Positions 2,954 through 18,576 of a stretch of 21,641 nt of DNA are shown piece after piece. The position numbers and the translations under genes were made by a program. Origin of the DNA: a virus. The notes under the pieces were generated by a model. It saw only the letters and a list, made by a program, of their open reading frames with translations, was not told the DNA's origin and made no database searches. How positions within the stretch are numbered: position 1 is the stretch's first letter; each line of letters starts with the position of its first letter. The stretch lies in the IMG/VR virus record IMGVR_UViG_3300013126_002903, positions 1 through 21,641 of that record. The stretch is one strand, 5' to 3'.

Positions 2954-3020
2954 GTGACTCGCCGCCTATTGTGGGGTGACGACGGGGTAGCAATTGAACG
3001 GAAGTAGAGAGGGGGAAAGA

Positions 3021-5129
3021 GTGCAACTTAGTAATACGGCTCGTCTTGTCTTGGAACGAAGGTACCTACGACCGGGCGAAACGCCGGAGCAGATGTTTGA
3101 GAGGGTAGCCAACGCCATCGCAGCAGCAGAGGCACCGGAGTACCGAAGCAGCATCGCTGCCGACTTTTACCAAGTGATGACCAACTTCGAGTTCCTGCCG
3201 AACTCACCCACGTTGGCAAATGCAGGGACGCCCGACGGCCAATTATCAGCCTGTTTCGTCTTACCAGTACCGGACGATATGGGTGGAATTTTTGCCACTA
3301 TCCGCAACATGGCTCTGGTACACAAATCGGGCGGAGGAACCGGATTCAGCTTTTCCGGGCTACGCCCTCGGGGATCGCCGGTCGGGCAGTATGGAGGCAC
3401 GGCTTCCGGGCCAGTGTCCTTTATGCGGATTTTCGACACAGTAGCCGATACCGTGCGCCAAGGCGGGATGCGGCACGGGGCGAACATGGGCGTCTTGTCC
3501 GTCGATCACCCGGACGTTGAGGAGTTTATCACGGCTAAACTAGACGGTTCGCTGACGAACTTCAATATTAGCGTTGGTTTGACCGACGCTTTTATGTCAG
3601 CAGTTCGTTACCACGAAAACCCGGAATATACCCGTCTCTGGAAGCTGATTTGTGAGTCAGCCCATCAAAGCGGCGATCCGGGAGTCCTGTTTATGGACCG
3701 AATCAATTCAAGTAAGGCGAACCCGGTTCCGAGTCTCGGTCCTATCAGGGCCACCAACCCGTGCGGTGAGCAGCCGCTCTACGATAACGACAGTTGTAAC
3801 CTAGGCTCAATCAATCTGTCCCGGTTCGTTAAGGACGAGGTTGGGTTTGATTGGCATCGTTTGGCACAAACCGTCTATCTAGCCGTGCGCTTCCTCGATG
3901 ATGTGGTAAGCGTCAACTGTGTACCGTTGCCCCAAATGGGAGTAATAAACGAAGGATTACGACGTATCGGCCTTGGTGTAATGGGATGGGCCGACGCCCT
4001 ATTCTGTCTTGGCATCCCGTACTCTAGCCAAAATGCCCGCGATGTTGCCAAGAAGGTGATGGGTTTCATCCAAGACCGAGCCGACGACGCTTCACGTGAT
4101 TTGGCTAAAGAACGCGGGTCGTTCCTGTTTCTGAATCAGTCGATTTACAGTTCGGAGCGCGCGTTCCGCAACGCAACCCGGACAACTATCGCACCGACTG
4201 GTACCATCTCGATCATCGCCGGATGCTCTAGTGGTATCGAACCGGTGTTTGCCTTAGCCTACAAACGGCAACACAAGCTTGATCACACAGACCCCAACAA
4301 AAACGTGTCCGCTTTCGAGATCAACCCAATCGTGGCTCGTAACCTAGCCGACAAGCCGAATGTTTTGGCTCAGTTGGTCGCTGGTGTACACATCTCCAAA
4401 ACCGAAGCACCAGAAAGTCTGGTCCGTGTCTTTGAGACGGCACACGACATCTCGCCTGAGGCACACTTGTTGATGCAAGCTGCCTTTCAGCAACATACCG
4501 ACAACGCCGTATCGAAGACCATCAACCTCTCCCATAACGCTACCCCGGAAGATATTTCGCGCATTTATCTGCAAGCGGATGAACTCGGGTTGATGGGAGT
4601 AACTGTTTACCGCGATGGCTCTAAAGCGGAACAGGTCTTCTCTGCTGTTTCCACACCGACTCCGGTTATTCCGGTCCGTCGCAAGCAACCGAAAACGCGG
4701 GAAGCGGTGATTCACAAGTTCCGCGTCGGCAACCACCAAGGATATTTGACCGTCGGTTTGAACCCGGAAGGCGAGCCGATGGAGTTATTCTTGAAAATTA
4801 ACCGGGAAGGGAACGGTCTGTCCGGTTTCGCTGACGCCGTATGTATTGCCACGTCCATTGGTTTACAATACGGAATTTCCCTCGACGTGTACGTGAAGAA
4901 GTACAAAGGTACCCGATTCGAGCCATCCGGCATGACGGGAGACCCAAACATCCCGAACTGTACTAGCGTCCTTGACTACGTATTTCGTTGGTTGGAACAG
5001 AGGTTTTTGTCACAGACGGTATCTACCGCGTCCGACGAACTAACTGAGGAATTCTGCCCGTGTGGCGGAATGCTTATCTTTGAGGAGGGGTGTTGGAAGT
5101 GCTATAGCTGTGGCGAATCCCGGTGCTAG
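3021..5129 (+). CDS. nrdJ: Class II (adenosylcobalamin-dependent) ribonucleotide reductase
   Basis: Reduces ribonucleotides to deoxyribonucleotides using a B12-derived radical, feeding phage DNA synthesis with or without oxygen. The protein has about 702 aa from the GTG at 3021, chosen because it follows GAGGGGG and places the family N-terminus (LSNTARLVLERRYL) at the start; a TTG at 2994 is an alternative. Visible landmarks are the redox cysteine in QLSACFV (Cys78), TNPCGEQ with the radical Cys248 and Glu250, the partner cysteine in DNDSCNLGSIN (Cys259), and APTGTISIIAGCSSGIEP. A Cys-rich tail (CPCGG...CWKCYSCGESRC) serves as zinc site and re-reducing dithiol. No ATP-cone is evident at the N-terminus. 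It overlaps the primase gene by 7 nt, so the two are one operon. Confidence 0.95.
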   Translation: MQLSNTARLVLERRYLRPGETPEQMFERVANAIAAAEAPEYRSSIAADFYQVMTNFEFLPNSPTLANAGTPDGQLSACFVLPVPDDMGGIFATIRNMALVHKSGGGTGFSFSGLRPRGSPVGQYGGTASGPVSFMRIFDTVADTVRQGGMRHGANMGVLSVDHPDVEEFITAKLDGSLTNFNISVGLTDAFMSAVRYHENPEYTRLWKLICESAHQSGDPGVLFMDRINSSKANPVPSLGPIRATNPCGEQPLYDNDSCNLGSINLSRFVKDEVGFDWHRLAQTVYLAVRFLDDVVSVNCVPLPQMGVINEGLRRIGLGVMGWADALFCLGIPYSSQNARDVAKKVMGFIQDRADDASRDLAKERGSFLFLNQSIYSSERAFRNATRTTIAPTGTISIIAGCSSGIEPVFALAYKRQHKLDHTDPNKNVSAFEINPIVARNLADKPNVLAQLVAGVHISKTEAPESLVRVFETAHDISPEAHLLMQAAFQQHTDNAVSKTINLSHNATPEDISRIYLQADELGLMGVTVYRDGSKAEQVFSAVSTPTPVIPVRRKQPKTREAVIHKFRVGNHQGYLTVGLNPEGEPMELFLKINREGNGLSGFADAVCIATSIGLQYGISLDVYVKKYKGTRFEPSGMTGDPNIPNCTSVLDYVFRWLEQRFLSQTVSTASDELTEEFCPCGGMLIFEEGCWKCYSCGESRC

Positions 5130-6943
5130 CCGAAAGTTCAACACTAAACGCCGCCTTAGATTACGCCGCTCGTGGTTGGTCGGTCCTCCCTTTGTACACT
5201 ATCCAAGGCGGACGATGTACTTGTGGTAATCGAGAATGTTCTTCTCCGGGGAAGCATCCGATGCCATCCTCGTGGAAGGAGCACTGGGAGCGTCGAGCCG
5301 GTGACGACGAGATCAGAGCGTGGTGGGGGAAGTGGCCCAACGCCAACATCGGAGTGGTTACCGGGGAAATTTCCGGCATAGTCGTGGCCGATATTGACAC
5401 CAAGCGAGGCGGAAAGGCTAGTGAGCAGTGGAAGCGGGCACCGACCGACTTAATTTCCGATACGGGTGGAGGCGGGCACCACCTGTTTTATCACTACCCT
5501 ACTGGGGAAGACATCGGCAACTCAGTTGGAGCAGACGGCATCGATGTCCGGGCCAACCGTGGTTTGGTGGTGCTTCCACCTTCGATGCACATCAGCGGGA
5601 AACGTTACTCGTGGCGAAGTCAAGGGACCATGGGCCAGTGGGTTCCGCCTCCGTCTTCCGTCCGTGAGCGACCAGTAGATGGTAGCAAGCCAAAGTGGCT
5701 CTCCGAGGCTTTGGGAGGAGTTGGATACGGTCAGAGGGACGACACCGCCACCAGAATAGCTGGATACTTCGCGGGCAAAGACGTGCCCCCGGATGTGACC
5801 TTACAGGTTCTATCGGCATGGAACGAAAAGAACGACCCACCGCTGCCAGTGGCCGACCTGAGCCGAATTGTGAAGTCGGTCTACGAAGGACACGTCCGCA
5901 GAGCTACCGTCCGGGGCGGTCTACAAGTCACAGCCACCGGCAGTAGAACCAACAGTCCTTTCTCGGTTACGCCACTTGATAACTTTATGCGAACGTACGC
6001 CGACCGAGAAGTACGGTGGATCATAAAGGACTGGATTCCGGAAGATACCATGCTCTTGGCAGTGGCTCCTCCGGGAACCAGAAAGACGTGGATGCTCTTT
6101 GACTTGGCCGTGTCCGTAGCCACCGGTACTCCGTTTTTGGGAATGTACCCGGTGGAAAAGATCGGACCGGTGATCATCGTTCAGCAGGAAGACCCACATA
6201 GCGATATTGCTTCCCGGTTGAGCGAGATTATTAATGCGCGACTTGGGATTGGTGATCGGACAAACGATAGCGGTAGCTTCGAGTTAGCTTTACCACCAAA
6301 TATTCCAATTTTCTTACACGAAGACCGGAGCTTGCACTTCGAAGACCCAGCATCCATGGAGAGCCTATATGCGGTGGTACAGAGCGTACAACCTGCTTTG
6401 GTGATTGTGGACCCGTTGTACTCTGCCGCGTCGACAGACGACTACATGGCCAAGGCTACTACCGCTATGTTGGGTTTAAAGACAATCCGCGACCGGTGTC
6501 GGACCAGCTTTGCCATCGCCCACCACACCAAAAAACGGGTGGGCACGGATACCGATCGAGAAGGCGCGTGGGGCTCTACCTTCTTAAATGCGTGGTTGGA
6601 AACGGGCTGGCAAATTAGGGCAGTTGAGAACCAGCCAAATACCGTCAACATTCTGAGGCACTTCAAGGTAAGAGGTGGCGTACCGCCCGTCCAATTAAAG
6701 TTTGATATCGAGACAGAGACGGACCACCGATACCGGGTGGAAGTGGTAGAGGAAGACGAAGTGGGACCTTCCGGCATCCTCGACCAGCTACAGGCCGGCC
6801 CTATGTCGGTAGCTGACTTGGCGGAAGCGTTGGGAACCAGCAAAGAAGCAGTACGCGAAACTTTGCGGCGAATGCGGCTGGATGGGCTCGTGTCGAACAA
6901 AGGCCAGTTGTGGAAGTTGGAACAAGAACTTCCGTCCCTATAG
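5123..6943 (+). CDS. Bifunctional primase-polymerase with RepA-like helicase domain
   Basis: Replication initiator fusing primer synthesis to a hexameric-helicase-type ATPase (606 aa). The N-terminal prim-pol domain (about 1-200) has a Cys insert (CTCGNRECSSPGKHP), the metal-binding pair Asp90/Asp92 in VVADIDTKRGG, the GGGGHHLFY nucleotide-binding His (119-120), and DVRANRGLVVLPPSMH. A middle linker leads to an AAA_25/RepA-like domain with a variant Walker A, APPGTRKT (315-322), Walker B VIVDP (427-431) and the AHHTKKR sensor motif (466-472). The C-terminus (about 555-606) is a winged-helix (SVADLAEALGTSKEAVRETLRRM) likely binding origin DNA. The GTG start overlaps nrdJ by 7 nt with no clear ribosome binding site, which implies coupled translation. 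Confidence 0.9.
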   Translation: MLAESSTLNAALDYAARGWSVLPLYTIQGGRCTCGNRECSSPGKHPMPSSWKEHWERRAGDDEIRAWWGKWPNANIGVVTGEISGIVVADIDTKRGGKASEQWKRAPTDLISDTGGGGHHLFYHYPTGEDIGNSVGADGIDVRANRGLVVLPPSMHISGKRYSWRSQGTMGQWVPPPSSVRERPVDGSKPKWLSEALGGVGYGQRDDTATRIAGYFAGKDVPPDVTLQVLSAWNEKNDPPLPVADLSRIVKSVYEGHVRRATVRGGLQVTATGSRTNSPFSVTPLDNFMRTYADREVRWIIKDWIPEDTMLLAVAPPGTRKTWMLFDLAVSVATGTPFLGMYPVEKIGPVIIVQQEDPHSDIASRLSEIINARLGIGDRTNDSGSFELALPPNIPIFLHEDRSLHFEDPASMESLYAVVQSVQPALVIVDPLYSAASTDDYMAKATTAMLGLKTIRDRCRTSFAIAHHTKKRVGTDTDREGAWGSTFLNAWLETGWQIRAVENQPNTVNILRHFKVRGGVPPVQLKFDIETETDHRYRVEVVEEDEVGPSGILDQLQAGPMSVADLAEALGTSKEAVRETLRRMRLDGLVSNKGQLWKLEQELPSL

Positions 6944-6954
6944 CCAATAGGATA

Positions 6955-6983
6955 TTGACAAGCTGTGCCGGCTGTGGTTTAAT
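6955..6983 (+). promoter_or_regulatory. Phage-type promoter P3 (rightward)
   Basis: TTGACA, a 17-base spacer ending TGG, and TTTAAT form a near-consensus extended -10 sigma70 promoter 12 bases after the primase stop. Its leader aligns with that of the promoter at 14479-14507: -10, A/G-rich stretch, CCGGG-type hairpin, then GAGTGCA. Both drive proteins containing the CGCG...GHD domain. Confidence 0.8.
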
Positions 6984-6993
6984 AGAAGGGTTC

Positions 6994-7008
6994 CGGGCGA
7001 AGCGCCCG
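6994..7008 (+). promoter_or_regulatory. Leader hairpin between P3 and the ribosome binding site
   Basis: CGGGCG, loop AAG, CGCCCG forms a 6-bp GC stem near the 5' end of the P3 transcript, upstream of AGAGGAG. A hairpin in the same place follows P5. Such 5' hairpins commonly stabilise phage mRNAs against 5'-dependent decay. That role is inference. Confidence 0.5.
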
Positions 7009-7023
7009 CAACAGAGGAGTGCA

Positions 7024-7656
7024 ATGGCAACAAAAACATATTCCGCAATCCCCATACACGTACCAGACACTCGCCAATGTCCCGTGTGCAAAACATGGGT
7101 TGAGTGCCGACCCGGTACCCGAGGCAAGCTCGATGAACATATTGGTCGGGAACACCCCGAGACGCAAGCCAAACAAGAAGCCACGTTCCGCGACTTGCTT
7201 GGACTACAAGAAGGAGAGATTCTAATGTCGGACAACAACGAAACTGTGGGCGGAATGACCCCCACCAAGACCAAGCGCGCCCCCAAGGCAAAGGCCGAGC
7301 CCAAGCTGAAGATCGTCAAGCCCGAAAAGGTTGCGATCAACTGCCTCTGCGGTTGTGGCACCCTCTGCAAGCCCGGTTCCTCGTTCCTGACGGGCCACGA
7401 CGCCCGCCTTGATGGTCGCCTCTCAAAGTGGCGCGATAACGGCGGCCCTTTCCCCGTCGACGAAGTGCTTGCCGCCAAAATCCTGCCAACCTTCCACAAG
7501 GGGAAGTATGCCCTGCTGGCCACCGCCGAAGGTCGTGTCGAAGTCGACAAAGCCCGCGCAGCCGCGCAGGAAGCCGCCATCGCCAAGAAGGCCGAGCAGG
7601 AAATGGCTAAGGAAGCCGCCGCCAAGGCAAAAGCCGAAGCTGTCCCCGCCGCGTAA
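7024..7656 (+). CDS. C2H2-finger / CGCG-GHD domain protein, possible dual start (210 aa)
   Basis: No named function is recognised. Residues 19-44 form a C2H2-like finger (CPVC...HIGREH). Residues 107-126 hold CLCGCGTLCK...FLTGHDARL, a small Cys/His motif shared with the protein at 14552-15145, ending in a common TFH(K/N)G(K/E)(Y/F)A segment. The last 45 residues are an Ala/Lys/Glu-rich helix resembling a histone-like or coiled tail. The ATG at 7024 follows AGAGGAG. An internal in-frame ATG at 7225 (Met68) has its own AAGGAG, so a shorter 143-aa form lacking the finger is likely. The first gene after promoter P3, followed by a strong hairpin, it is probably made in large amounts. It may bind DNA. 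Confidence 0.75.
   Translation: MATKTYSAIPIHVPDTRQCPVCKTWVECRPGTRGKLDEHIGREHPETQAKQEATFRDLLGLQEGEILMSDNNETVGGMTPTKTKRAPKAKAEPKLKIVKPEKVAINCLCGCGTLCKPGSSFLTGHDARLDGRLSKWRDNGGPFPVDEVLAAKILPTFHKGKYALLATAEGRVEVDKARAAAQEAAIAKKAEQEMAKEAAAKAKAEAVPAA
7211..7227 (+). promoter_or_regulatory. Internal ribosome binding site and start codon
   Basis: AAGGAG is followed 8 nt later by an in-frame ATG (7225), inside the C2H2/GHD gene. The site is better than many annotated starts in this window. Codon use shifts to a strongly GC-ending, Ala/Lys-rich style right after it, as if two ORFs had been fused. Either two isoforms are made or the upstream finger ORF was originally separate. Confidence 0.5.
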
Positions 7657-7672
7657 GCCGCCCCGCCGCCCC

Positions 7673-7704
7673 GGGGGAGGGTCCGCCCCTCCGGACCCTC
7701 CCCC
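7673..7704 (+). terminator. Strong GC hairpin, probable terminator
   Basis: A perfect 13-bp inverted repeat (GGGGGAGGGTCCG, 6-nt loop, complement) lies 17 nt after the stop of the GHD protein gene. No U-tract follows, so it is either a stem-only terminator, a partial attenuator or an mRNA 3' stabiliser. The nuclease gene downstream has no promoter of its own, so some read-through is expected. This would keep the GHD protein high and the nuclease low. Confidence 0.65.
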
Positions 7705-7740
7705 ACCACCGCCCTAAAAGGAGAACGTTTCAGGAGTGTA

Positions 7741-8787
7741 ATTACGAAAACATCACCGGAACTCTTGTCTTACTCCCGGCTTTCGGAGTGGCTTAAGTGC
7801 CGTTACCGCTGGGAACTTCGGTACGAGCGGAAAATTACGCAACGCGTCAACGATCGCGCACCCCAACTCGGCTCCGCCATTCACGTCGGCTTAGCTGCCG
7901 CTCTTAACGAACACGCAAAACAGCATGAGGTTGTGGACATCGCCTATGCCGCGTCCTGTTCAGCCATCGAAGCTTGGCGGGCGGAATGGTATACCCGCGA
8001 TATGTTCGATGAGGAATACGAGCAGGTTGAAGAAGTAGCTACTACTGCTACAATTATCGCTGCCCGTACCCTCGACGACTTCCATCTTCCACAATGGGAG
8101 GTTCTTCAACATCGCGGCGTGCCACTTGTGGAGAAGCAGTTAAAGGTTCGACTCCCCGGGTGGGCGGGTTTCCAAGTCTACTTCGATCTGGTGGCCCGCG
8201 ACCTGAACACTGGCCATGTGTGGCTTATCGATTGGAAGACCCGGAAGCAGTTCCTTCCGGTAGAAGCCGAGGAGGTCAACCTCCAGATGGGCATCTATCA
8301 GGAGGTAGCGCGTCGGCTTGGCATTCCGGCTGTTGGCTCCATCGCCTACCAGATCCGATCCAAGGTCCCAGCAACTCCGACCCTCAATAAAAACGGGACT
8401 ATGAGCCGGTCCCAGATCACCACCGACTGGCCCACTTACCGACAGGCACTTGTCGATAACGGGCTCGACCCAGAAGATTACCGGGAGGAAATGAGCGCCA
8501 AACTAACGACGCCGTTCTTTTCCCGGGCCACAGCGTATCGTACCGATGAAGAGACTCGGGCGTTATGGGAAGAGGTTGTGGTTCCTGCATCCCATGAAAT
8601 GCGGTACACCCGCCGCCATTTTCTCCGGAACCTGTACGCACTCAACTGCCAGACGTGTTGGGCTCGCCCTTGGTGTCTGGAGGAAATGCGCGGTCAAGAC
8701 CCGAGTTGGTTGCTCAACTCCCAGCTACAACAAGTTGCTGCAGCCGTCGATGCCGATACCCCCATTGACACCGACGAACCTATCTGA
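7741..8787 (+). CDS. PD-(D/E)XK exonuclease with Fe-S cysteines (Cas4/RecB-like)
   Basis: A recombination or replication nuclease of the RecB/Cas4 family. Counting from the TTG at 7765: the entry motif LSYSRLSEWLKC with Cys12; GSAIH (His40); Asp141 in QVYFDLVA; DWK (Asp156, Lys158) as the PD-(D/E)XK core; and LQMGIYQ (Gln174, Tyr178). With Cys12, CQTCWARPWC (295, 298, 304) completes the four cysteines of a 4Fe-4S cluster that pins the fold. The start is unusual: an ATT at 7741 sits 4 nt after AGGAG, exactly like the ATG of the gene at 7024, and adds TKTSPEL. The TTG at 7765 has no ribosome binding site. The gene lies upstream of a Sak4-like ATPase, as expected for a recombination module. Confidence 0.85.
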   Translation: MTKTSPELLSYSRLSEWLKCRYRWELRYERKITQRVNDRAPQLGSAIHVGLAAALNEHAKQHEVVDIAYAASCSAIEAWRAEWYTRDMFDEEYEQVEEVATTATIIAARTLDDFHLPQWEVLQHRGVPLVEKQLKVRLPGWAGFQVYFDLVARDLNTGHVWLIDWKTRKQFLPVEAEEVNLQMGIYQEVARRLGIPAVGSIAYQIRSKVPATPTLNKNGTMSRSQITTDWPTYRQALVDNGLDPEDYREEMSAKLTTPFFSRATAYRTDEETRALWEEVVVPASHEMRYTRRHFLRNLYALNCQTCWARPWCLEEMRGQDPSWLLNSQLQQVAAAVDADTPIDTDEPI

Positions 8788-8821: not shown

Positions 8822-9688
8822 ATGGCAATTCACACCCCATATTTGGCCGGGGCGGAAAAGCCCAAGATCAACGCCCTGATCTACGGGCGACCGGGTTGCG
8901 GCAAGACTACTTTTGCCGCGCAAGCCAATGACCATCCCGACATGGCTAATGCGTTGTTTCTCAACGTCGAGGGTGGTTTACTTTCAGTCGCCCACCGGGG
9001 CGATATTCAGGCCATCGACATCCGCGATTCCAAGACCTTGGAAGATGTCTTTTGGGATTTGGTGAATAAAGATCCGGCGTTCGCGGACATCCAGACGATT
9101 GTCATCGACTCCGGATCCGAACTCCAATCGGTTGGTCTTCAGCAAATCGTCAGTGACGCCGTGGCCGACCCGAAGAAGGTTCGCCGGGACGATCTTGACG
9201 AAATCGAGATCGGAGACTACGGCAAGTCGACGGCCCAGCTTACACGGCTTTTCCGCTGGTTCCGCGACAGCCCGTACCACGTGATCATCACGGCTCTCCC
9301 CAAGTACGTATTCCCGAAGGGGAACACCAACGAGAACAAAGAGCCCATCGACTGCATCCCCTCTTTTACCGCCAAACTGGCCGAATCGGTCATGGGCTAC
9401 GTCGATTTCGTGTGGTACATGTACATCGACGCTGAGGGGAACCGTAAGATGCTTACACAGGAAAAGGGAATCTACCGGGCCAAAACGCGTGGCCCGGAGT
9501 TCGCCATGACGTTGGGACAGGTCGTCTCCGACCCCAACCTTAGTAGCATTTACGACCTGCTCCTAAAGACTCAGGGGAAAACCCCCTCCAAACCTGTCGC
9601 AATCAAGCGACCCGTCACAGCCGTGAAACCTCCGGCTACTCTGCCGGAACCGGCCCTAAGTCCTGAGTCCGAACAGGCTAGCGCTTAA
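8822..9688 (+). CDS. Sak4-like RecA-fold ATPase (AAA_24 type)
   Basis: A single-strand annealing or recombination ATPase of the phage Sak4 kind (288 aa). Walker A is YGRPGCGKTT (21-30) and Walker B is TIVIDS. The middle contains the acidic DDLDEIEIGDYGK stretch and RLFRWFRDSPYHVIITALPK, typical of AAA_24 proteins. The C-terminus is a Pro/Lys-rich tail (KTPSKPVAIKRPVTAVKP...ESEQASA) likely flexible and protein-binding. The ATG has TAGGAG upstream. It follows a Cas4-like nuclease and precedes a probable ssDNA-binding partner, the usual order in Sak4 recombination modules. A role in DNA repair or replication restart is likely. Confidence 0.85.
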   Translation: MAIHTPYLAGAEKPKINALIYGRPGCGKTTFAAQANDHPDMANALFLNVEGGLLSVAHRGDIQAIDIRDSKTLEDVFWDLVNKDPAFADIQTIVIDSGSELQSVGLQQIVSDAVADPKKVRRDDLDEIEIGDYGKSTAQLTRLFRWFRDSPYHVIITALPKYVFPKGNTNENKEPIDCIPSFTAKLAESVMGYVDFVWYMYIDAEGNRKMLTQEKGIYRAKTRGPEFAMTLGQVVSDPNLSSIYDLLLKTQGKTPSKPVAIKRPVTAVKPPATLPEPALSPESEQASA

Positions 9689-9716: not shown

Positions 9717-10181
9717 ATGGCAGTCCCCGGTAACGTAGTCGATCCGTTCGCGCAGTCCAATCCGCAGGAAGACGTCGAGTTTCAGGTAGACCTGACCGAT
9801 ATCCAGTCGAATTTCCGCATCCCGAAGGGCGAGTACGAAGCGGTTTGTTTCGATGTCGAGCGGTCCATCAGCGACGCGGGCAACCCGATGATCATCTGGT
9901 CTTTTCGCCTCACCAAAGGCGAATTCGCCGGACGCGAATGGAAGAACTTCACGGCCCTGACTCCGCAAGCGATGTGGAAGGTGGCCGAGACAGTCGAGTC
10001 GCTTGGTCTTGGTGCGACCGGTTCTGTGTCCCGGTTCAAGGCCGAAGACGCCCTCGGCCGACTCTGCGTACTCGCCATGATCGATGACGAGTACAAGGGA
10101 CAGAAGCGATCCGCTATCGGTTCGGTAATGCCCCACCCGGACGGAGTCGGGACCAAGATGAAGGCAGCCGGTCAGCCTTAG
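9717..10181 (+). CDS. Probable ssDNA-binding protein (DUF669-like, 154 aa)
   Basis: The layout is that of phage DUF669-type proteins encoded next to Sak4 ATPases: a short N-terminal arm (NVVDPFAQ), a beta-rich core (DIQSNFRIPKGEYEAVCFDVERSIS, NPMIIWSFRLTKGEFAGREWKNFTAL), a helix around the ALTPQAMWKVAETVESLG segment, and a final strand pair (GRLCVLAMIDDEYKGQKRSAIGSVMPHP). These are believed to coat single-stranded DNA and help the annealing ATPase. The start ATG has only a weak ribosome binding site. Upstream spacing is 28 nt and the gene is followed by a hairpin. The assignment rests on fold pattern and neighbours, not on a catalytic motif. Confidence 0.65.
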   Translation: MAVPGNVVDPFAQSNPQEDVEFQVDLTDIQSNFRIPKGEYEAVCFDVERSISDAGNPMIIWSFRLTKGEFAGREWKNFTALTPQAMWKVAETVESLGLGATGSVSRFKAEDALGRLCVLAMIDDEYKGQKRSAIGSVMPHPDGVGTKMKAAGQP

Positions 10182-10250: not shown

Positions 10251-10309
10251 AAGAAGGGAGGGGAAAATCCATGGCGACCGTCAGCACCGAAGATTTCCCC
10301 TCCCTTCTT
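10251..10309 (+). promoter_or_regulatory. Long hairpin enclosing the polymerase ribosome binding site and start
   Basis: The arms are 10251-10269 and 10292-10309. They pair over 18 bp with a single bulged A. The left arm holds the Shine-Dalgarno GGGAGGGG (10256-10263). The ATG (10271-10273) is in the 22-nt loop and the right arm is codons 8-13. Folded, this would hide the ribosome binding site, so the polymerase should be translated only when the hairpin is opened or not formed. This is the geometry of the T4 gp43 translational operator, where the polymerase binds its own mRNA. That analogy is inference. Confidence 0.75.
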
Positions 10310-12007
10310 CGTCGAATTGACGCCGCCGACGAGATTACCGTCGACCTTGAAACCACCGGGCTGCACCCATGGCTAGGCGATGAAATGGTGGGTACAGCCA
10401 TCCAAACAGACGGGCGGGATACTTACTACGTTCCATTCCGCCACTTGCACTCTAATCTCCCGCCCGTCTGTTTGGGTCCTCTAGTAAAGACTCTGGAACG
10501 CCACCCCAACCATGTCTACTTCAACGCCCAGTTCGACATTCAGTTTCTGATGGCCGAGGGTATGAAGTTGCCGGTGCACATTAAAGACTCAATGCTTGCC
10601 GCCCATCTGGTAGACGAAAACGAACCGAGTCACGCCCTCAAGACGCTAGGTGACAAGTACATTGGCACCGGGGCCAGCGCTGAACAGAAGGCCCTCGACA
10701 CCATCCTGCTAGAACACAAATTAAAAAAGAATGAGATGGGGAAGCTGGACCCCGCGTTGGTCGCACCCTACGCCGAACAGGACGTGCGTCTGACCACTCA
10801 GCTTCTCCGGTTCTACGAACCAAAGCTAGCCGCGTGGCACATCTCCCACCTATTCGACGAAGCCAACGAATACGCCCGGGCGTTGACGGACATGAGCGTT
10901 ACCGGTATCGCCATTGATGTTAATCTTACTCGACAATACCTCGAAGAATGCGGTCCGCAGACGGACGCCGCCAAAGCTACGCTACGAAAGTTGGCCGATA
11001 ATCCCAACCTCAACCCGGCCAGTGCTCCGCAAATGAAGAAGTTGTTGGGATTGCCGTCCACAGCCGCCCCGTTCTTAGAGCGGTTACAAATGCAGGGCAA
11101 ACTGTCGGACGAACAAAAGACGCTGGTGGATGCCATCCAGCTATTTCGCAGTTGGAATCGAACAGCCGGGGCTTATTACCAGCCGTACCTTGAGTCGATG
11201 GATGAAAACGGCGTACTGCATCCGACCTTCAACCAAGCCCGAGTGGTAACCGGACGACTAAGTTGTTCCGATCCCAACCTACAGGCAATTCCTCGCCACG
11301 ATGACCGGGTGGTTGGCAAGGTAAAAAACATCTTCATTGCTCGTCCCGGGTTTACTTTGGCGAATGCCGACTACGGACAGGCCGAGTTGCGGATGCTTGC
11401 ACACTACACCCAAGACCAAGAGATGATCGACCTGTTTCTCTCTGGCGTTGACTTCCACGGAGCGACAGCCGAGCAATTCCATATGTCCCGGGATGTCGCC
11501 AAGCGAATTAACTTCGGGATAGCATACGGACTCGGTAAGCGGGGTCTATCCGAGCGTACCGGGTTAACCGAGCAACAAGCCGCCGCGCACCTGAAACGAT
11601 ACCACAACGGACACCCCGGAATTCGACGCCTGATGAACATGGCTGAGAGTACCGCCGTCAACCGGGGTTATATTCGCATGTGGACAGGTCGACCAGCCCG
11701 CTTCCCTGCCGGGGCGCGAGATGCACACAAGGCGATGTCAACCTTGATCCAAGGCGGGGTGGGTGAGGTCATGCGGGTAAAGATTACCGAACTGCACAAG
11801 GGACTACCCCGTTTTGGTGCCCGAATGACTCTGCAGGTTCACGACTCGATCATGTTTGAGATTCCAGACGAGAACCTACAAGAGACGCTGGCGTATATCC
11901 GGGCGACGATGACGGACCTTCCGTTTAGCTGCCCATTTATTGTTGATATAGAAGTAGGGAAACGGTGGGGAACCGCCGAGAAAGTAAAACAAGGAGTAGC
12001 AGCATGA
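10271..12007 (+). CDS. polA: Family A DNA polymerase with 3'-5' exonuclease (DpoZ candidate)
   Basis: Replicative polymerase (578 aa) with proofreading and no 5' nuclease. Exonuclease motifs: VDLETTG (Asp25, Glu27), NAQFD (Asn85, Asp89) and YAEQD (Tyr167, Asp171). Polymerase motifs: TGRLSCSDPNLQAIP; motif A ADYGQAELR (Asp367, Glu372), where family members usually have DYSQIELR; motif B R407..K411..F415..Y419 G; motif C QVHDSI (Asp525), where the usual HDE has become HDS. The gene overlaps purZ by 4 nt. Together with purZ this suggests the DpoZ group, which copies 2-aminoadenine in place of adenine. The start is fixed by GGGAGGGG 7 nt upstream, which lies in a long hairpin. Confidence 0.93.
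   Translation: MATVSTEDFPSLLRRIDAADEITVDLETTGLHPWLGDEMVGTAIQTDGRDTYYVPFRHLHSNLPPVCLGPLVKTLERHPNHVYFNAQFDIQFLMAEGMKLPVHIKDSMLAAHLVDENEPSHALKTLGDKYIGTGASAEQKALDTILLEHKLKKNEMGKLDPALVAPYAEQDVRLTTQLLRFYEPKLAAWHISHLFDEANEYARALTDMSVTGIAIDVNLTRQYLEECGPQTDAAKATLRKLADNPNLNPASAPQMKKLLGLPSTAAPFLERLQMQGKLSDEQKTLVDAIQLFRSWNRTAGAYYQPYLESMDENGVLHPTFNQARVVTGRLSCSDPNLQAIPRHDDRVVGKVKNIFIARPGFTLANADYGQAELRMLAHYTQDQEMIDLFLSGVDFHGATAEQFHMSRDVAKRINFGIAYGLGKRGLSERTGLTEQQAAAHLKRYHNGHPGIRRLMNMAESTAVNRGYIRMWTGRPARFPAGARDAHKAMSTLIQGGVGEVMRVKITELHKGLPRFGARMTLQVHDSIMFEIPDENLQETLAYIRATMTDLPFSCPFIVDIEVGKRWGTAEKVKQGVAA
10402..10475. repeat. 18-bp perfect inverted repeat inside the polymerase gene
   Basis: Arm 10402-10419 is the exact reverse complement of 10458-10475, with a 38-nt loop. 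It lies in codons 44-69 of the polymerase, next to the hairpin at the start codon. Such a long perfect repeat in conserved coding sequence is not expected by chance. It could be an mRNA structure acting with the start-site hairpin, or a DNA cruciform or single-strand origin element. Confidence 0.8.
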
Positions 12008-13053
12008 TTACAGCCGTGGTAGGTGGCCAATATGGGAGCGAAGGGAAGGGCGTTATCGTCCACCACATCGCAAACCGTTACGACGTTCACGTGAGGACGG
12101 GTGGCCCGAACGCCGGACACTCGTTCCAACACCTTGGGAAGGTCTGGAAGATGCAGGTGATTCCTTGCGGCTGGACCAACCCAAATGCCCACATCATCAT
12201 CGGGCGGGGTGCTTTGGTGGACCCACACCAACTACAACTAGAACTGGAAGCGATCCGAAAGGTGGATCCGACGATCGACGAGCGGCTGTTCATTGACGCT
12301 GACGCCGGAGTACTCGACAGTCGCTACCACATGGCCGAGGGTGGGGTTGCCGGGGCCATCCACGCACGCATCGGCTCCACCGGGGAAGGCGTAGGAGAAG
12401 CCCGCATGGCTCGTATTGCCCGGAATCCAGAAGCTAACGGCTTCCGGTTGTGGAAAGACGCCGCGTCGGAGTTCGGATTTGAGCATTTGTCCTACCCGGA
12501 CACACCCCGCATGCTTCACGAGTCGATTCGCCAAGGGGATCACGTTCTGCTCGAAGGAACACAGGGAAGCGGGTTGTCGCTCATCCACGGGCCATGGCCT
12601 TACTGCACCAGCCAAGACACCAACGCTGCAACTCTGGCAGCAGAAGCCGGGATTCCGCCGCAGCACATTACCGACGTTCTCTTGGTGGTACGCACTTATC
12701 CGATTCGCGTTGCCGGAAATTCCGGCCCACTGGAGCGGGAGTTGACGTGGGAACAAATGAGTGCTCGTATCGGCAAGCCGGTCGAAGAAAAGACCACCGT
12801 CACTCGCCTCGTGCGCCGGGTGGGCGAGTGGGACCCTGACCTTATCAAGCGGTCGTCCGTTCTGAACAGCCCGACTTCTGTTGCATTGACATTTGCCGAC
12901 TACATCTCCCCACAAGATGAAGGGAAGAAAGAATGGAACCAGCTGTCCCGGCACACCATCGATTTTGCCGAGAGTGTGGGGATGGTAGCCGGGGCACCGG
13001 TTAACTTCATCGGCACGGGCGGCTCCGTGTGGAGTGTCTGCGAGCGTGGATAG
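12004..13053 (+). CDS. purZ: PurZ-type adenylosuccinate synthetase (2-aminoadenine synthesis)
   Basis: PurZ joins aspartate to dGMP, giving N6-succino-2-amino-dAMP, the precursor of base Z. The protein has 349 aa, the length of PurZ and archaeal PurA rather than bacterial PurA (about 430). The P-loop reads GGQYGSEGKG: Ser12 stands where PurA has the catalytic Asp that activates IMP, a change described as typical of PurZ. Other sites: GGPNAGHS (His39), GSTGEGVG (125-131), LLEGTQGSGLSLIHGPWPYCTS (182-203), VRTYPIRVAGNSGP, and TTVTRLVRRVGEWD. The ATG at 12004 overlaps the polymerase stop (ATGA) and has AAGGAG upstream. The next gene is dut. An ordinary PurA making AMP is the alternative, but the Ser argues against it. 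Confidence 0.9.
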   Translation: MITAVVGGQYGSEGKGVIVHHIANRYDVHVRTGGPNAGHSFQHLGKVWKMQVIPCGWTNPNAHIIIGRGALVDPHQLQLELEAIRKVDPTIDERLFIDADAGVLDSRYHMAEGGVAGAIHARIGSTGEGVGEARMARIARNPEANGFRLWKDAASEFGFEHLSYPDTPRMLHESIRQGDHVLLEGTQGSGLSLIHGPWPYCTSQDTNAATLAAEAGIPPQHITDVLLVVRTYPIRVAGNSGPLERELTWEQMSARIGKPVEEKTTVTRLVRRVGEWDPDLIKRSSVLNSPTSVALTFADYISPQDEGKKEWNQLSRHTIDFAESVGMVAGAPVNFIGTGGSVWSVCERG

Positions 13054-13477
13054 GGTCTATTTCGTCCTCGGGTCAGAGTCTTTCGCGGAACCACAGGCTC
13101 CGGCCCGAGCCTATCCTTCCGATGCAGGTTGGGACCTTTTCGTGTCCCGAACCACAGAGGTGATCGGCAACAGTTTTGTCGATGTCCACACCGACATCAA
13201 TATCGCCATGCCGCCCGGTTACTGGGGACTTATCACCGGGCGCTCCTCGACTGTCCGCAGACGCCAACTAAGAGTAGAGCCCGGGGTAGTGGATGAAGGC
13301 TATCGAGGCGAGTTGAAGATTGGCGTATGGAACCTCAGTGGCTGGGTTACCAAAGTGTTAGCCGGGGAGCGACTGGCCCAACTGATTTTTATCGCCAGCA
13401 ACCGGTTCGAATGGCGAGAGGTAGAAAATCTCCCGCCCGGGGAGAGAGGATACAATGGATTCGGATCAACCGGTTAA
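13034..13477 (+). CDS. dut: dUTPase
   Basis: Hydrolyses dUTP to dUMP and pyrophosphate, keeping uracil out of DNA and supplying dTMP synthesis (trimeric family). All five motifs are present in 147 aa: DAGWDL (30-35), TGRSS (68-72), GVVDEGYRGEL with catalytic Asp87, ERLAQLIF (112-119), and ERGYNGFGSTG at the C-terminus. The GTG start at 13034 overlaps purZ by 20 nt; a second in-frame GTG at 13046 is possible. Its stop overlaps the next gene by 23 nt. Within this operon it fits a module that sets the composition of the dNTP pool. Confidence 0.92.
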   Translation: MSASVDRVYFVLGSESFAEPQAPARAYPSDAGWDLFVSRTTEVIGNSFVDVHTDINIAMPPGYWGLITGRSSTVRRRQLRVEPGVVDEGYRGELKIGVWNLSGWVTKVLAGERLAQLIFIASNRFEWREVENLPPGERGYNGFGSTG

Positions 13478-13928
13478 CGAAATCAAGCGTGACCTACTTA
13501 CCAAAGCGATCGAAACGACTTGTGGTGATCGCAACGTCGATTATGGTGGTCCCCGTACAAATTTCCGTGCAGTAGCTACCCTATGGGAAGCATGGGAAGA
13601 AATCTGCCCTCCGGGGAAGTACAGCCCGGAACACGACTACTGTATCCGCATGATCTTGGTGAAACTGGCCCGCATCGCGACCGGCGTCGTCAAAGAAGAC
13701 AACTACCTTGACGGCATCGGCTACTTTGCAAACGCGTGGGAGATGGCTACACCAAACCCGGTCAGTGGAGTTGTGGTATTTCACCACACCGAAGTATGGG
13801 AAGACACCAGCGTTATTTCTGGTGGGGATGGCTCCGCCGGGTTCAAGTACCCCGACGGCCCACAACCGTGGGACAACTCGCCGGACAAGATGCATGGAAA
13901 GAGTCGAGCCGATGCAAACTCCTCTTGA
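13455..13928 (+). CDS. DUF6378-like (MazG-related) protein, candidate nucleotide pyrophosphohydrolase
   Basis: Residues about 10-100 have the DUF6378 pattern: LLTKAIETTCGDRNVDYGGPRTNFRAVATLWEAW, then EHDYCIRMILVKLARIATG and KEDNYLDGIGYFANAWEM. This all-helical phage family resembles MazG-type NTP pyrophosphohydrolases, and the K..R...DN..D..GY residues would line a metal/nucleotide site. The last 55 residues are an extra, loop-like extension (GGDGSAGFKYPDGPQPWDNSPDKM). The ATG has GGAGAGGA upstream. In Z-DNA phages a MazG-like enzyme (MazZ) turns dGTP into dGMP for PurZ. Its position two genes after purZ makes it the best MazZ candidate here, but DUF6378 is also common in ordinary phages. Confidence 0.7.
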   Translation: MDSDQPVNEIKRDLLTKAIETTCGDRNVDYGGPRTNFRAVATLWEAWEEICPPGKYSPEHDYCIRMILVKLARIATGVVKEDNYLDGIGYFANAWEMATPNPVSGVVVFHHTEVWEDTSVISGGDGSAGFKYPDGPQPWDNSPDKMHGKSRADANSS

Positions 13929-14298
13929 ATCCACTGTAGTAAAAACTATCCTGAATGGCCTTCGCTCCTATGGGGCAAAGGCCATCAAGATTCACGTTGA
14001 CGGCTATGTTGAAGAAGGCACCCCCGACATCTTCGCCTGTCTAAATGGCTGGATGTTTGCCATTGAGGTAAAGCGACCAGACGACAAGGAACACCCGACC
14101 AAGAAGCAGCAATACGAATTGGCAGCGTGGGAAGAAGCCGGGGCTGTTGTTGGCGTAGCCCGAGGATGGCCCGACGTAGAGCGACTTATTCGACCTGCCC
14201 TTCGGAGCCCACGGGTAACCCGGGAGAGCCCCGGACCGATATACGGGGCTGTAGAGATCCCTCCTATTTCTCAGTGTCCAACGGAGAGGCTTCCGTGA
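13912..14298 (+). CDS. VRR-NUC domain nuclease (128 aa)
   Basis: A small PD-(D/E)XK nuclease of the VRR-NUC family. Residues 1-20 form a helix (ESTVVKTILNGLRSYG), then the catalytic core: GTPDIF with Asp39, FAIEVKRP with Glu52 and Lys54, and a Gln/Tyr helix (KKQQYELAAWEEAGA) followed by VGVARGWPDVERLI. Stand-alone phage VRR-NUC proteins are thought to cut branched or flapped DNA during replication and recombination. The ATG at 13912 has GGAAAGAG upstream and overlaps the DUF6378 gene by 17 nt. The stop overlaps the GTG of the methyltransferase remnant. The last 25 residues are Pro/Arg-rich and look disordered. Confidence 0.85.
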   Translation: MQTPLESTVVKTILNGLRSYGAKAIKIHVDGYVEEGTPDIFACLNGWMFAIEVKRPDDKEHPTKKQQYELAAWEEAGAVVGVARGWPDVERLIRPALRSPRVTRESPGPIYGAVEIPPISQCPTERLP

Positions 14299-14551: not shown

Positions 14552-15145
14552 ATGGCAAAGCTGGTTCTCATCAACACCGTCAACAGCGCCAAACTCAGCA
14601 AGGGCAACAACGGATTCGCCGTTCACGCCGCCGATTGCGCAGACTTGGCAAAGGCGCTCAAGACTCTTGGTGTCCACAAGGGCACCGAAGCCGACACTCT
14701 CGACGAACTGGCCAAGGCATTTAACGACGACATGGTTGCTGGTGGATTCGAGCCGGGTGAGTGGGATTTTGACCGCGACGTGAAGTTGTTTGCTTGTGCC
14801 ACGACTACCGTCACCAAGCGAGCCAAGCCTAACATGGCCAAACTTTCCGAGTCTCCTTGCTGTAACCTGTTCCCCCACGAGCGCACCTGCCTTTCCGCCC
14901 TTCGGGCAGCTAACAAGGCCGCTCGCGCCAAAGCAATTGTCCCGCCCGTCAACGAAATCAACGAAGTCGTTCCGGGGCGTTGCCGCTGCGGTTGCGGTGC
15001 CGCCGTCGACAGCAAGCGCAACTTCCGCCAAGGGCACGACCAGCGACTCGTCGGCCTACTCCGCAAGGGTACGGTTCCGGCAGAGGCCAAGGGCGCTTTC
15101 CTTCTCACCTTCCACAACGGCGAATTCGCGAGGCTGGTGTCCTAA
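14552..15145 (+). CDS. CGCG-GHD domain protein, paralogue (197 aa)
   Basis: No named function is recognised. The N-terminal 125 residues differ from the protein at 7024: an initial strand (KLVLINTVNS), helices (ADLAKALKTLG, TLDELAKAFNDDMVAGGFEPGEW), then SPCCNLFPHERTC with clustered cysteines. The C-terminal domain (144-197) carries RCRCGCGA...FRQGHDQRLVGLL and LLTFHNGEFARLV, which aligns with residues 107-166 of the 7024 protein. Three close cysteines plus the GHD histidine look like a metal site. Expressed first from promoter P5 with a leader related to P3, it was probably copied together with its control region. The start ATG has GGAG 10 nt upstream. Confidence 0.75.
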   Translation: MAKLVLINTVNSAKLSKGNNGFAVHAADCADLAKALKTLGVHKGTEADTLDELAKAFNDDMVAGGFEPGEWDFDRDVKLFACATTTVTKRAKPNMAKLSESPCCNLFPHERTCLSALRAANKAARAKAIVPPVNEINEVVPGRCRCGCGAAVDSKRNFRQGHDQRLVGLLRKGTVPAEAKGAFLLTFHNGEFARLVS

Positions 15146-15568: not shown

Positions 15569-15630
15569 GCTATATCTGTAGCCATCCGATAGCTTCCGTG
15601 TTAGGAGAGCTTTCCCGTGAACTTCCGTGA
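15565..15630 (+). CDS. Coupling mini-ORF (21 aa)
   Basis: The ATG overlaps the previous stop (ATGA), and the ORF ends 14 nt inside the helicase gene, spanning its ribosome binding site. It encodes MSYICSHPIASV...SRELP. Its main role may be to carry ribosomes across the helicase start. Confidence 0.3.
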   Translation: MSYICSHPIASVLGELSRELP

Positions 15631-16969
15631 GTATCCTCCGCCTCTATGGCCACACCAAGCTGAAGCCTTGTACCAAGCAACCGCGCACCCGGGGTTCATG
15701 CTGGCCATGGACATGGCCACCGGGAAATCGCGAGTGGCTGTCGACTGGATACAGAGAGTCGGAGCCAAGCGCGTCTTGTTAGTAGCTTCTGCTAATGTGG
15801 TGTCCGTGTGGCCGGATCAGTTTGAGCAGTGGGCTCCCGGGGCACACCGAGTAATTGTCCTCGCCGGGACCAACAAGCAACAAACCATGCGAATGTTGGC
15901 TGACTCCGATCCGGGCGTTTTCATTGTGACCTATGGCACGGTTTGGCGCAATCCGATGAAGGATTTCCTGTTCGATAACCGAGAAACCCATATTGACGCC
16001 GCCATCCTAGACGAAAGTCACCGCATCAAGTCGGCGGGGTCAAAGGTCTCGAAATTCTTTGCCGCGTTCGGTAGGAGACTAGAGCATCGACTGTGTTTGA
16101 CCGGCACGCCCGCCCCCAACTCCCGGCTCGACCTGTACGGACAATTCCGATTCCTCGACCCTACGGTATTCGGCACGAATTACAACCGTTTCGCGAACAA
16201 ATATGCTGTGTTCGGTGGGTTCGAGAAGCGTCAACTCCTGTTTTATCGGGAAGAGATGGAAGCCGACATGCGTAACCGCTTCTATTCCCTGTCTTATCGA
16301 GTCAAGCTCGACGATGTACTCGACGTCCCGCCCTACGTGCCTACGGTCATACGTAGCTTCCAACTAGGGAAAGAGGCATTCCGGGTGTACAAAGAAATGG
16401 AAAAAGATTCGTTGGCGGACCTACAGGGAGCAACCGCTGTTGCGGGTAGTATCTTGACCAAGATGCTCCGGCTCCAACAGGTAACGTCGGGGTTCATTCC
16501 AGACGATACTGGAAAGGTGCATCAAGTCGATACCGGGAAAATCAACGCGTTCAAAGACCTACTGGAAGACCTATCCCCGGACAAAAAGGTCGTGGTATTT
16601 TGCCTGTTTGTTCATGACATCGCCGCTGTCAAAGCAGCTGTAACGGCTTCTGGTCGGAAAGTCGCTGAGCTATCCGGAAAGATAAAGGAACTAGACGGCC
16701 CGCGATTCCCCGAGTGGGCCGACGTGCTGGTAGTCCAACAACAAAGCGGGTCTGAGGGCATCGACTTAACTGCCGCCCGGTACTGTGTCTTTTATTCGCT
16801 GGGTTACAGTAGGGGAGTTTACGACCAATGTCGTGCCCGGTTACGTCGCCCCGGACAGACTCGCCCGGTCGCTACCATCCACATCAACGCCACCAAAACA
16901 GTGGATACTCGCATCTCCAAAGTGATCGACACCAAAGGCGACCTAATTCGAGCACTGCTAGACAAATGA
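15617..16969 (+). CDS. SNF2/SF2-type DNA helicase (450 aa)
   Basis: An SF2 helicase/translocase of the SNF2 class as found in phage replication modules. Motifs: Q-like PPLWPHQAEAL (8-18), Walker A DMATGKSR (32-39), DEAH-box variant DESH (132-135), motif III LTGTPAPNSR (161-170), then the second RecA-like lobe with KVVVFCLFVHD, SGSEGIDLTAARYCVFY (motif V) and QCRARLRRPGQ (motif VI arginines). No extra domains are present, so it is close to a minimal core. It probably remodels protein-DNA complexes or recombination intermediates. The GTG start has AGGAG 9 nt upstream; an in-frame downstream start would lose the PPLWPHQ motif. It is the last gene of the rightward arm and is followed directly by a terminator. 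Confidence 0.9.
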   Translation: MNFREYPPPLWPHQAEALYQATAHPGFMLAMDMATGKSRVAVDWIQRVGAKRVLLVASANVVSVWPDQFEQWAPGAHRVIVLAGTNKQQTMRMLADSDPGVFIVTYGTVWRNPMKDFLFDNRETHIDAAILDESHRIKSAGSKVSKFFAAFGRRLEHRLCLTGTPAPNSRLDLYGQFRFLDPTVFGTNYNRFANKYAVFGGFEKRQLLFYREEMEADMRNRFYSLSYRVKLDDVLDVPPYVPTVIRSFQLGKEAFRVYKEMEKDSLADLQGATAVAGSILTKMLRLQQVTSGFIPDDTGKVHQVDTGKINAFKDLLEDLSPDKKVVVFCLFVHDIAAVKAAVTASGRKVAELSGKIKELDGPRFPEWADVLVVQQQSGSEGIDLTAARYCVFYSLGYSRGVYDQCRARLRRPGQTRPVATIHINATKTVDTRISKVIDTKGDLIRALLDK

Positions 16970-17638: not shown

Positions 17639-17851
17639 CTAACCGGGGCCATTAGCCGGGAGAATCGATTCGAGCCAAGGCAACGCCCGCTTTAGTCCAG
17701 CGCCGACAATGGCAAAACCGGCTGCAATTGCCCACGCCCCCCAGTCAGAAATGGGTGACAAGCTGGCGTCAAGAAAGAGTTGAATTGCCATACCGAGGCC
17801 CCCTGCCACAAAGGCCACAATTGTGTAGATGACCGCTGTCCGGATGCTCAT
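17639..17851 (-). CDS. Holin candidate (70 aa, two membrane helices)
   Basis: Two hydrophobic helices (about residues 6-27, TAVIYTIVAFVAGGLGMAIQLF, and 38-52, WGAWAIAAGFAIVGAG) are joined by a short acidic turn (DASLSPISD), with a basic stretch (LKRALPW) after the second. Size and layout match class II holins. It has a strong GGAGGT ribosome binding site and its ATG overlaps the M23 endopeptidase stop codon (TAATG), the expected partner. Holins have no conserved sequence motif, so this call rests on topology and context. Confidence 0.65.
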   Translation of the reverse strand: MSIRTAVIYTIVAFVAGGLGMAIQLFLDASLSPISDWGAWAIAAGFAIVGAGLKRALPWLESILPANGPG

Positions 17852-18576
17852 TAGATACCTCCGATTTTGTCGATGATCTTCTTCTGCGCGACTTGCGTTC
17901 GACGCAGCCCGAGCGGAAAGCTGAATTCACGGAGTTTACAGTACGTAAACGCAAGTGGCCCTGTCAAGGTGATAACATCTTCGTCCCGGGCCGTTCCCTC
18001 TTGGACAATCGGAGTACCCGAAGGGAAACACTCCTCTGTTCCCGGGTAACACACCGCATCGACGCCGTATTCGCCAAGGAGCTTGCGGATTGACGCCGTG
18101 TCTTCTTCGATCTTCTGCAGTCGGTCCATTTCTTCCTCCGAGAGTACAAGCGGGAGCGGGTCGCGTGAGTGTGCGATGTCGAGCGGGAATGTCGGGCTAT
18201 CCGACAACTGCCAGTGGAGATGGTCAAGGTATTGGCCGAGGAATGCCCCCTCATGACCGGTCAGGCCAAGATGTTCCCCGGCTTCTACCCTCTGCCCTAG
18301 CCGGACGTAGGACGCCGAGCCGTGGGCAAACATCGAGAAGCGAAAAGCGTCCGATACGTGATCGTGTTCGAGGCAAACCGCATACCTGCCGAACGTCCCA
18401 TCGTTGGTAGGCCGGACCACAACACCTGGGGCTGGTGCCCGGTAGAGATTCCCGGCTGCGATGTCGTAGTCAATACCTCGATGTTGGTACGGAGGTGTAC
18501 CAGAATACCACTGTGCAAAGCGCCCCGAGTAGGGAGCTTGCACCGGCTCACAGTAAAAAACCAGCTGATCTACCAT
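17851..18576 (-). CDS. M23-family endopeptidase (endolysin)
   Basis: A zinc metallopeptidase that cuts peptidoglycan cross-bridges, likely the phage endolysin (241 aa). The LytM core shows HRGIDYD (His32, Asp36), SMFAH (His85) and HLHW (His119, His121), the expected zinc and catalytic residues, plus APAPGVVVRPTNDGTFG and GEHLGLTGHEGA. There is no signal peptide, so export would need the holin encoded next. The C-terminal 110 residues (a SEEEMDRLQKIEEDTASIRKLL coiled-coil, then a Cys-containing domain) are not a known cell-wall binding module and may be a new targeting domain. It overlaps the upstream membrane protein by 7 nt. Confidence 0.88.
   Translation of the reverse strand: MVDQLVFYCEPVQAPYSGRFAQWYSGTPPYQHRGIDYDIAAGNLYRAPAPGVVVRPTNDGTFGRYAVCLEHDHVSDAFRFSMFAHGSASYVRLGQRVEAGEHLGLTGHEGAFLGQYLDHLHWQLSDSPTFPLDIAHSRDPLPLVLSEEEMDRLQKIEEDTASIRKLLGEYGVDAVCYPGTEECFPSGTPIVQEGTARDEDVITLTGPLAFTYCKLREFSFPLGLRRTQVAQKKIIDKIGGI

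Follow-up and report, generated by a model that had tools for sequence, protein, structure and literature searches.

Does the purine synthetase-like gene carried by the virus record IMGVR_UViG_3300013126_002903 serve an ordinary purine pathway, or does it, together with its neighbours, provide 2-aminoadenine (Z) for phage DNA? The stretch analysed here (the window, 21.6 kb) is the whole record, which is classed as linear; such records are often fragments. We consider it likely, from comparisons of sequences and structure models, that the operon at 10271–13928 represents a third lineage of Z phages and serves Z synthesis for DNA.

Operon layout

Four consecutive genes make up the operon:

10271–12007, + strand: family A DNA polymerase (PolA) with 3'–5' exonuclease; 578 amino acids (aa); PF00476, 5e-68; PF01612 exonuclease, 9e-12
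12004–13053, + strand: predicted PurZ-type succinoaminodeoxyadenylate synthetase of the third clade; 349 aa; PF00709, 5e-52; Ser12, PIRVAGNSGP, TTVT loop, D299
13034–13477, + strand: dUTPase-fold gene (Dut), DutZ type; 147 aa; PF00692, 1.5e-26; TGRSSTVRR
13455–13928, + strand: DUF6378 protein; 157 aa; PF19905, 8e-15; predicted four-helix core

The genes overlap by 4, 20, and 23 nucleotides (nt), the polA/purZ overlap being ATGA, and an AAGGAG site lies 8 nt 5' of the purZ ATG. An earlier note, made from the letters of the window alone, had described these four overlapping genes and a GGQYGSEGKG motif with Ser in the synthetase, and both the open reading frames (ORFs) and the domain E-values bear this out. 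Because of these E-values, and of a gene order conserved over about 20 metagenomic contigs, a chance origin of the operon is excluded.

Active site and predicted donor of the synthetase

In the GGQYGSEGKG motif, Ser12 occupies the position of the catalytic Asp in PurA (Asp13). The residues around deoxyguanosine monophosphate (dGMP) and in the aspartate loop of S-2L PurZ, whose roles are described in PMC8342488, provided 20 positions for comparison, and 19 of these are identical in the window synthetase, including S12, T126, V236, the TTVT loop, and R271. In S-2L numbering the identities comprise S23, S131, T273–T276, and R280, among others; PurA departs from both proteins at S23 (Asp), S131 (Thr), and T273 (Gly). 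Escherichia coli PurA contacts the 2'-OH of inosine monophosphate (IMP) through R303; at this position the window protein and S-2L PurZ both have Leu. Furthermore, the window protein shares with phage PurZ an insertion after PIRV (PIRVAGNSGP); in PurZ it pushes against the sugar on its 2' side, and PurA lacks it.

The sole departure in the pocket is D299, which replaces Q308 of S-2L; Asp is also present at this position in PurZ0 and PurA. Because Q308 is said to disfavour guanine (PMC8342488), we predict a GTP-type donor, and the window enzyme probably uses GTP rather than ATP. As for the characterised enzymes, one sentence in PMC12884076 has PurZ0 and PurZ preferring ATP and GTP, respectively, while the introduction of the same paper gives ATP for PurZ; judged by the residues, that sentence seems to have the two donors the wrong way round.

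Position of the synthetase among PurZ and PurA

Relatives were gathered by scanning IMG/VR with a phage PurZ alignment and by searching genomes of bacteria and archaea. The closest are up to 62% identical to the window synthetase, and those of isolated phages at most 38%. In the resulting tree the window protein groups with 15 others at a support of 98/92, and with four deeper relatives in a clade of its own at 100/98. The tree keeps this clade apart from PurZ0 (100/100), PurZ including S-2L (100/100), PurA (100/99), and a chromosomal group (100/100), and places it on the PurZ side of the 100/99 branch that leads to PurA. The proposal that the synthetase is a PurZ thus agrees with the tree, and also with the pocket residues and the operon context; for these three reasons, assignment to the PurZ type, in the broad sense of PurZ plus PurZ0, is strongly supported.

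Members of this third clade are all metagenomic. Only one, on a 13 kb contig from a Bacteroidetes bin (L093), comes from outside the viral collection; this contig also has the phage replication genes of the lineage and is therefore probably viral. The survey in PMC12884076, drawn from NCBI viruses, distinguishes two clades of phage PurZ that each go with a polymerase group of their own, and concludes that Z-selective polymerases arose twice. We found no description of a third clade in the literature searched, which did not extend to subscription papers.

The dUTPase-fold enzyme

The window Dut points in the same direction. Its best matches, among 961 matching phage records, are the Dut genes of PurZ0-type phages (124 bits for Theresita and 118 bits for Arthrobacter phages), whereas Dut from phages outside this group reaches at most 81 bits among the matches listed. 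In a Dut tree, all 34 Dut proteins of PurZ-positive phages, DutZ included, split at 100/97 from six canonical dUTPases, a small set that nevertheless includes the nearest non-Z relatives. The PurZ-associated proteins are marked by GRSS (sometimes ARSS, TRSS, or SRSS) with T, S, or A as the next residue, at a site where canonical dUTPases have PRSG, PRSS, or PKSG and in one case SRSG; in the window, TGRSSTVRR replaces the canonical P[RK]S[GS].

DutZ of Ghobes and Wayne hydrolyses dATP and dGTP to the monophosphates (PMC12884076). In Ghobes, gp55 is the Dut, and gp53 is NDT-like in sequence. By analogy, the window Dut is predicted to be a dATP/dGTP (and dUTP) diphosphatase. Such an activity would suit a PurZ, because dGMP is made and dATP is removed, and the DutZ type strengthens the Z interpretation beyond the basis it had in the earlier note. 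Within the lineage, 18 of 22 PurZ-positive loci (two of them near-identical) have a Dut, against 0 of 5 distinct relatives that lack PurZ (Fisher p 0.0016, relatedness ignored). The four PurZ-positive loci that lack Dut are L016, L017, L018, and L037.

Polymerase lineage and relatives without PurZ

All catalytic motifs of the window PolA are intact (DLET in the exonuclease; DYGQAELR, RDVAKRINFGIAY, and QVHD in the polymerase), and in the tree it falls outside both the DpoZ-1 and the DpoZ-2 clades. A first scan found PurZ adjoining in 23 of 23 loci with a PolA near that of the window, using peptide patterns that PurZ-positive loci had themselves supplied. A second scan, which started from the neighbouring AAA_24 gene and was less biased, recovered relatives (L303, L307, L315, L320/L321, and L324) in which neither PurZ nor Dut was found on the whole contigs (36–55 kb). 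These sister phages keep the PrimPol–nuclease–AAA–PolA order. Their polymerases are as similar to that of the window as those of PurZ-positive phages (39.5–39.8%, 406–413 bits) and are interleaved with them in the tree, L315 standing beside L205, and L303/L307 beside L187.

Strict linkage of PolA and PurZ, and with it a third dedicated DpoZ, was withdrawn as a proposal after the AAA_24 scan. Because the PurZ-less sisters carry the same PolA lineage, we regard the window enzyme as a polymerase of the lineage, and the earlier identification as DpoZ is not established. The sisters provide natural controls for Z-dependence.

Three observations concern individual relatives. L315 lies on the same contig as L206. 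In L020 (11043–13472) the PolA adjoining purZ is a fusion with an N-terminal uracil-DNA glycosylase domain. The phage of L187 is sister to the PurZ-less L303/L307, and its PurZ (7078–8037) has Gly for the catalytic Ser and AGNVHQ in place of NAGH; this purZ looks like a decaying gene.

DUF6378 and other nucleotide-pool genes

As for the fourth gene of the operon, its description as MazG-like was not confirmed, and the role of MazZ is not supported. DUF6378 matches MazZ with an hhalign probability of 0.6% and has no PDB sequence match up to E 10. Its model (four helices; predicted local distance difference test, pLDDT, 75) has no Foldseek match in the PDB at E 0.001. The domain occurs in about 800 isolated phage records, of which almost all lie outside the host groups known for PurZ. 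Because of these results, it was rejected as evidence for a MazZ. A plain protein scan found no DUF6378 relatives.

At the corresponding position of the locus, other members of the clade carry DUF1599, NDT (DmtZ-like), or DUF5664 genes. NDT genes are present in L014, L017, L027, L031, and L201, in three of which (L014, L031, and L201) they lie beside Dut. Aligned with DmtZ, these three score an hhalign probability of 98.4%; the Tyr, Asp, and Glu positions are conserved in them, and Asn in most. Near purZ, DUF1599 (nucleotide modification associated domain 1) is fused to NDT in L017 (11013–11780), L031 (8262–8900), and L201 (9078–9953), which may represent a new domain pairing for Z metabolism. 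In L016 (11044–11325), which lacks Dut, a DUF5664 gene (dATP/dGTP diphosphohydrolase, 5.8e-20) directly follows purZ on its 3' side, suggesting a gene swap for the role of Dut. Neither Dut nor a substitute gene was recognised in L018 and L037. An HD-domain protein is conserved upstream of polA in one subclade (L024, 5845–6426, and five relatives); it was rejected as a DatZ at an hhalign probability of 2%.

Proposed mechanism and alternative explanations

If the operon serves Z synthesis, the PurZ-type enzyme would condense dGMP and aspartate to the succino intermediate of Z monophosphate (dZMP), probably with GTP, and a lyase and kinases of the host would complete the triphosphate (dZTP). The DutZ-type diphosphatase would convert dGTP to dGMP and remove dATP (and dUTP), and PolA, with PrimPol, would copy using dZTP, so that the virion DNA would contain Z; the same polymerase would be able to serve A-DNA phages too. 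Since one PolA lineage serves PurZ-less sister phages as well, the main factor in choosing Z over A is probably how the nucleotide pool is controlled, and not a dedicated polymerase, a conclusion that we hold less firmly than the Z interpretation itself. For S-2L, an unselective PrimPol is proposed to copy with what the nucleotide pool leaves (PMC8065100). More tentatively, the phages of this clade might be a third kind of Z-DNA phage, assembled independently: a GTP-using PurZ and a DutZ-type diphosphatase would have joined, or dropped out of, an otherwise ordinary replication module, and replacing A with Z would need no dedicated polymerase and could switch on or off between sister phages.

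Several points weigh against Z synthesis by this operon. The argument is drawn entirely from comparisons of sequences and models, and the record is a fragment. The synthetase scores 236 bits to the PurZ model NF038379, below the cut-off of 300, and is outscored by the archaeal PurA profile at 273 bits, likewise below its cut-off (368); one reading is that the clade is divergent and lies beyond the seed range of NF038379. Ranked by sequence and fold, its best solved relatives are Pyrococcus PurA, followed by PurZ0 and PurZ. The structure model (pLDDT 93.6) superposes on all three, and as Pyrococcus PurA scores above PurZ, we rejected fold comparison as a discriminator; fold and raw similarity do not separate the two. 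Ser at the Asp position was likewise rejected as sufficient proof of a PurZ, since chromosomal homologues also carry it. PolA reaches 222 of the 500 bits and 69 of the 350 bits at which the DpoZ models NF038380 and NF038381 are cut off. DatZ (YfbR-like HD, PF12917), MazZ, and NDT (DmtZ-like) genes were not found in the window, nor was DUF5664, in a search that had no positive control. The co-occurrence of Dut and PurZ is, in addition, uncorrected for relatedness.

Among the alternatives, a complete system of PurZ, a Z-selective third DpoZ, and a MazZ-type protein is unlikely. The fact that polA and purZ are neighbours on almost every PurZ-positive contig of the lineage, and at every locus of the first scan, would suit a dedicated polymerase, as would the intact exonuclease, since DpoZ uses its exonuclease (PMC8599892). 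However, the patterns of that scan came from PurZ-positive loci, equally similar polymerases occur in PurZ-less phages, and DUF6378 is neither Z-specific nor a match to MazZ.

It is improbable that the enzyme makes a succino- or 2-amino-purine nucleotide for a purpose other than substitution of the whole genome, such as partial Z, counter-defence, or a soluble nucleotide, although the Ser-type homologues in bacterial chromosomes may do so. Such a use would be in line with the Ser-type kinase fusions of bacteria and archaea, which lie in a cassette unlike a replication module, with sister phages that manage without PurZ, and with the Gly-bearing PurZ of L187, where NAGH is lost. The chromosomal proteins do resemble the window enzyme in the catalytic Ser, in the insertion after PIRV, and in an identity of 36–43%, but they form their own clade (100/100), are fused to a P-loop kinase, and occur outside a phage context. 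They are also changed at R146, Y203, and T274, residues that the window keeps as in characterised phage PurZ, and the window purZ is embedded in a replication operon with a DutZ.

An ordinary or captured archaeal-type PurA, which would use IMP and so increase the supply of dATP, is highly improbable: the Pyrococcus horikoshii enzymes (PDB codes 5k7x and 2d7u) share the short fold (~340 aa) and give the top Z-score (44.7) and the top sequence score, but they have Asp for the window Ser, Gly for Thr273, and Arg303 for Leu, lack the ribose-side insertion, and lie on the other side of the 100/99 branch, and raising dATP would be senseless beside a DutZ that destroys it.

The Z operon proposed in the earlier note is supported in its PurZ part, through tree, pocket, and context, and gains from the DutZ-type dut; its DpoZ part is not established, and its MazZ part is not supported.

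Comparison with known Z phages

The PurZ0 phages (Gordonia phages Ghobes and Archimedes, the Arthrobacter Wayne group, and Microbacterium and Streptomyces phages) resemble the window in the catalytic Ser, the TTVT loop, and an Asp at the donor-base position, in a nearby DutZ-type Dut, and in having PrimPol and PolA in the replication module. They share NDT (DmtZ-like) or DUF5664 genes with some members of the third clade, but neither DmtZ nor DUF5664 was detected in the window. In contrast to the PurZ0 phages, the window purZ overlaps polA directly, its product is at most 38% identical to theirs and belongs to another clade, and its PolA is not DpoZ-1. With the PurZ phages (phiVC8, SH-Ab 15497, and S-2L) the window shares the dGMP pocket and loop residues, and with S-2L also PrimPol, VRR-NUC, and helicase genes. 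It differs from them in D299, where they have Q308/N297, in having Dut instead of DatZ plus MazZ, in a PolA that is not DpoZ-2, and in its separate clade.

A third clade with a DutZ-type enzyme and a different polymerase lineage would widen the known range of Z phages. The PurZ-positive and PurZ-less sisters form natural pairs for asking whether a dedicated polymerase is needed or control of the deoxynucleotide pool alone suffices, a question that bears on building Z-DNA in laboratory bacteria.

Other genes of the window

Apart from the operon, the following genes were recognised:

2994–5129, + strand: class II (B12-dependent) ribonucleotide reductase; would supply deoxynucleoside diphosphates, not Z-specific
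5123–6943, + strand: PrimPol-helicase (PF09250, PriCT_1, AAA_25); replication module of the lineage
7765–8787, + strand: PD-(D/E)XK nuclease; replication module of the lineage
8822–9688, + strand: AAA_24 ATPase; replication module of the lineage
9717–10181, + strand: single-stranded DNA-binding-like protein; conserved in 17 loci of the lineage
13912–14298, + strand: VRR-NUC nuclease, Holliday-junction-resolvase-like (ATG at 13912); downstream gene conserved in the lineage
15617–16969, + strand: SNF2-type helicase; replication module of the lineage
17851–18576, - strand: M23-peptidase-like lysis or tail protein; the minus strand carries the late genes at the 3' end of the window

Two ORFs, at 6910–7656 and 14552–15145, have in common a small domain, CxCGCG...F..GHD.RL...L (e.g., INCLCGCGTLCKPGSSFLTGHDARL and CRCGCGAAVDSKRNFRQGHDQRL); the latter ORF matches phrog_5395, of unknown function.

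A chromosomal cassette with a PurZ-like domain

In bacterial and archaeal chromosomes (L099–L171), the Ser-type PurZ-like protein is the C-terminal half of a fusion of about 540 aa with a P-loop (dNMP-kinase-like) domain, as in L114 (8039–11704), L130 (8031–11694), L158 (7923–11731), L113, and L148. DUF7002 follows the fusion in 60 of 78 loci, 44 loci encode an ImmA/IrrE (Peptidase_M78) protein upstream, and type I restriction–modification genes are found near some. PADLOC gave no match to either the PurZ-like or the DUF7002 protein. The best PDB match of DUF7002 is DarT1, at a weak E of 0.038. The ImmA/IrrE protein of L130 gives a match to CapP, and its C-terminal part a weak one to the DarG macrodomain. 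The cassette is a candidate DarTG-like toxin–antitoxin or defence system with a nucleotide synthetase.

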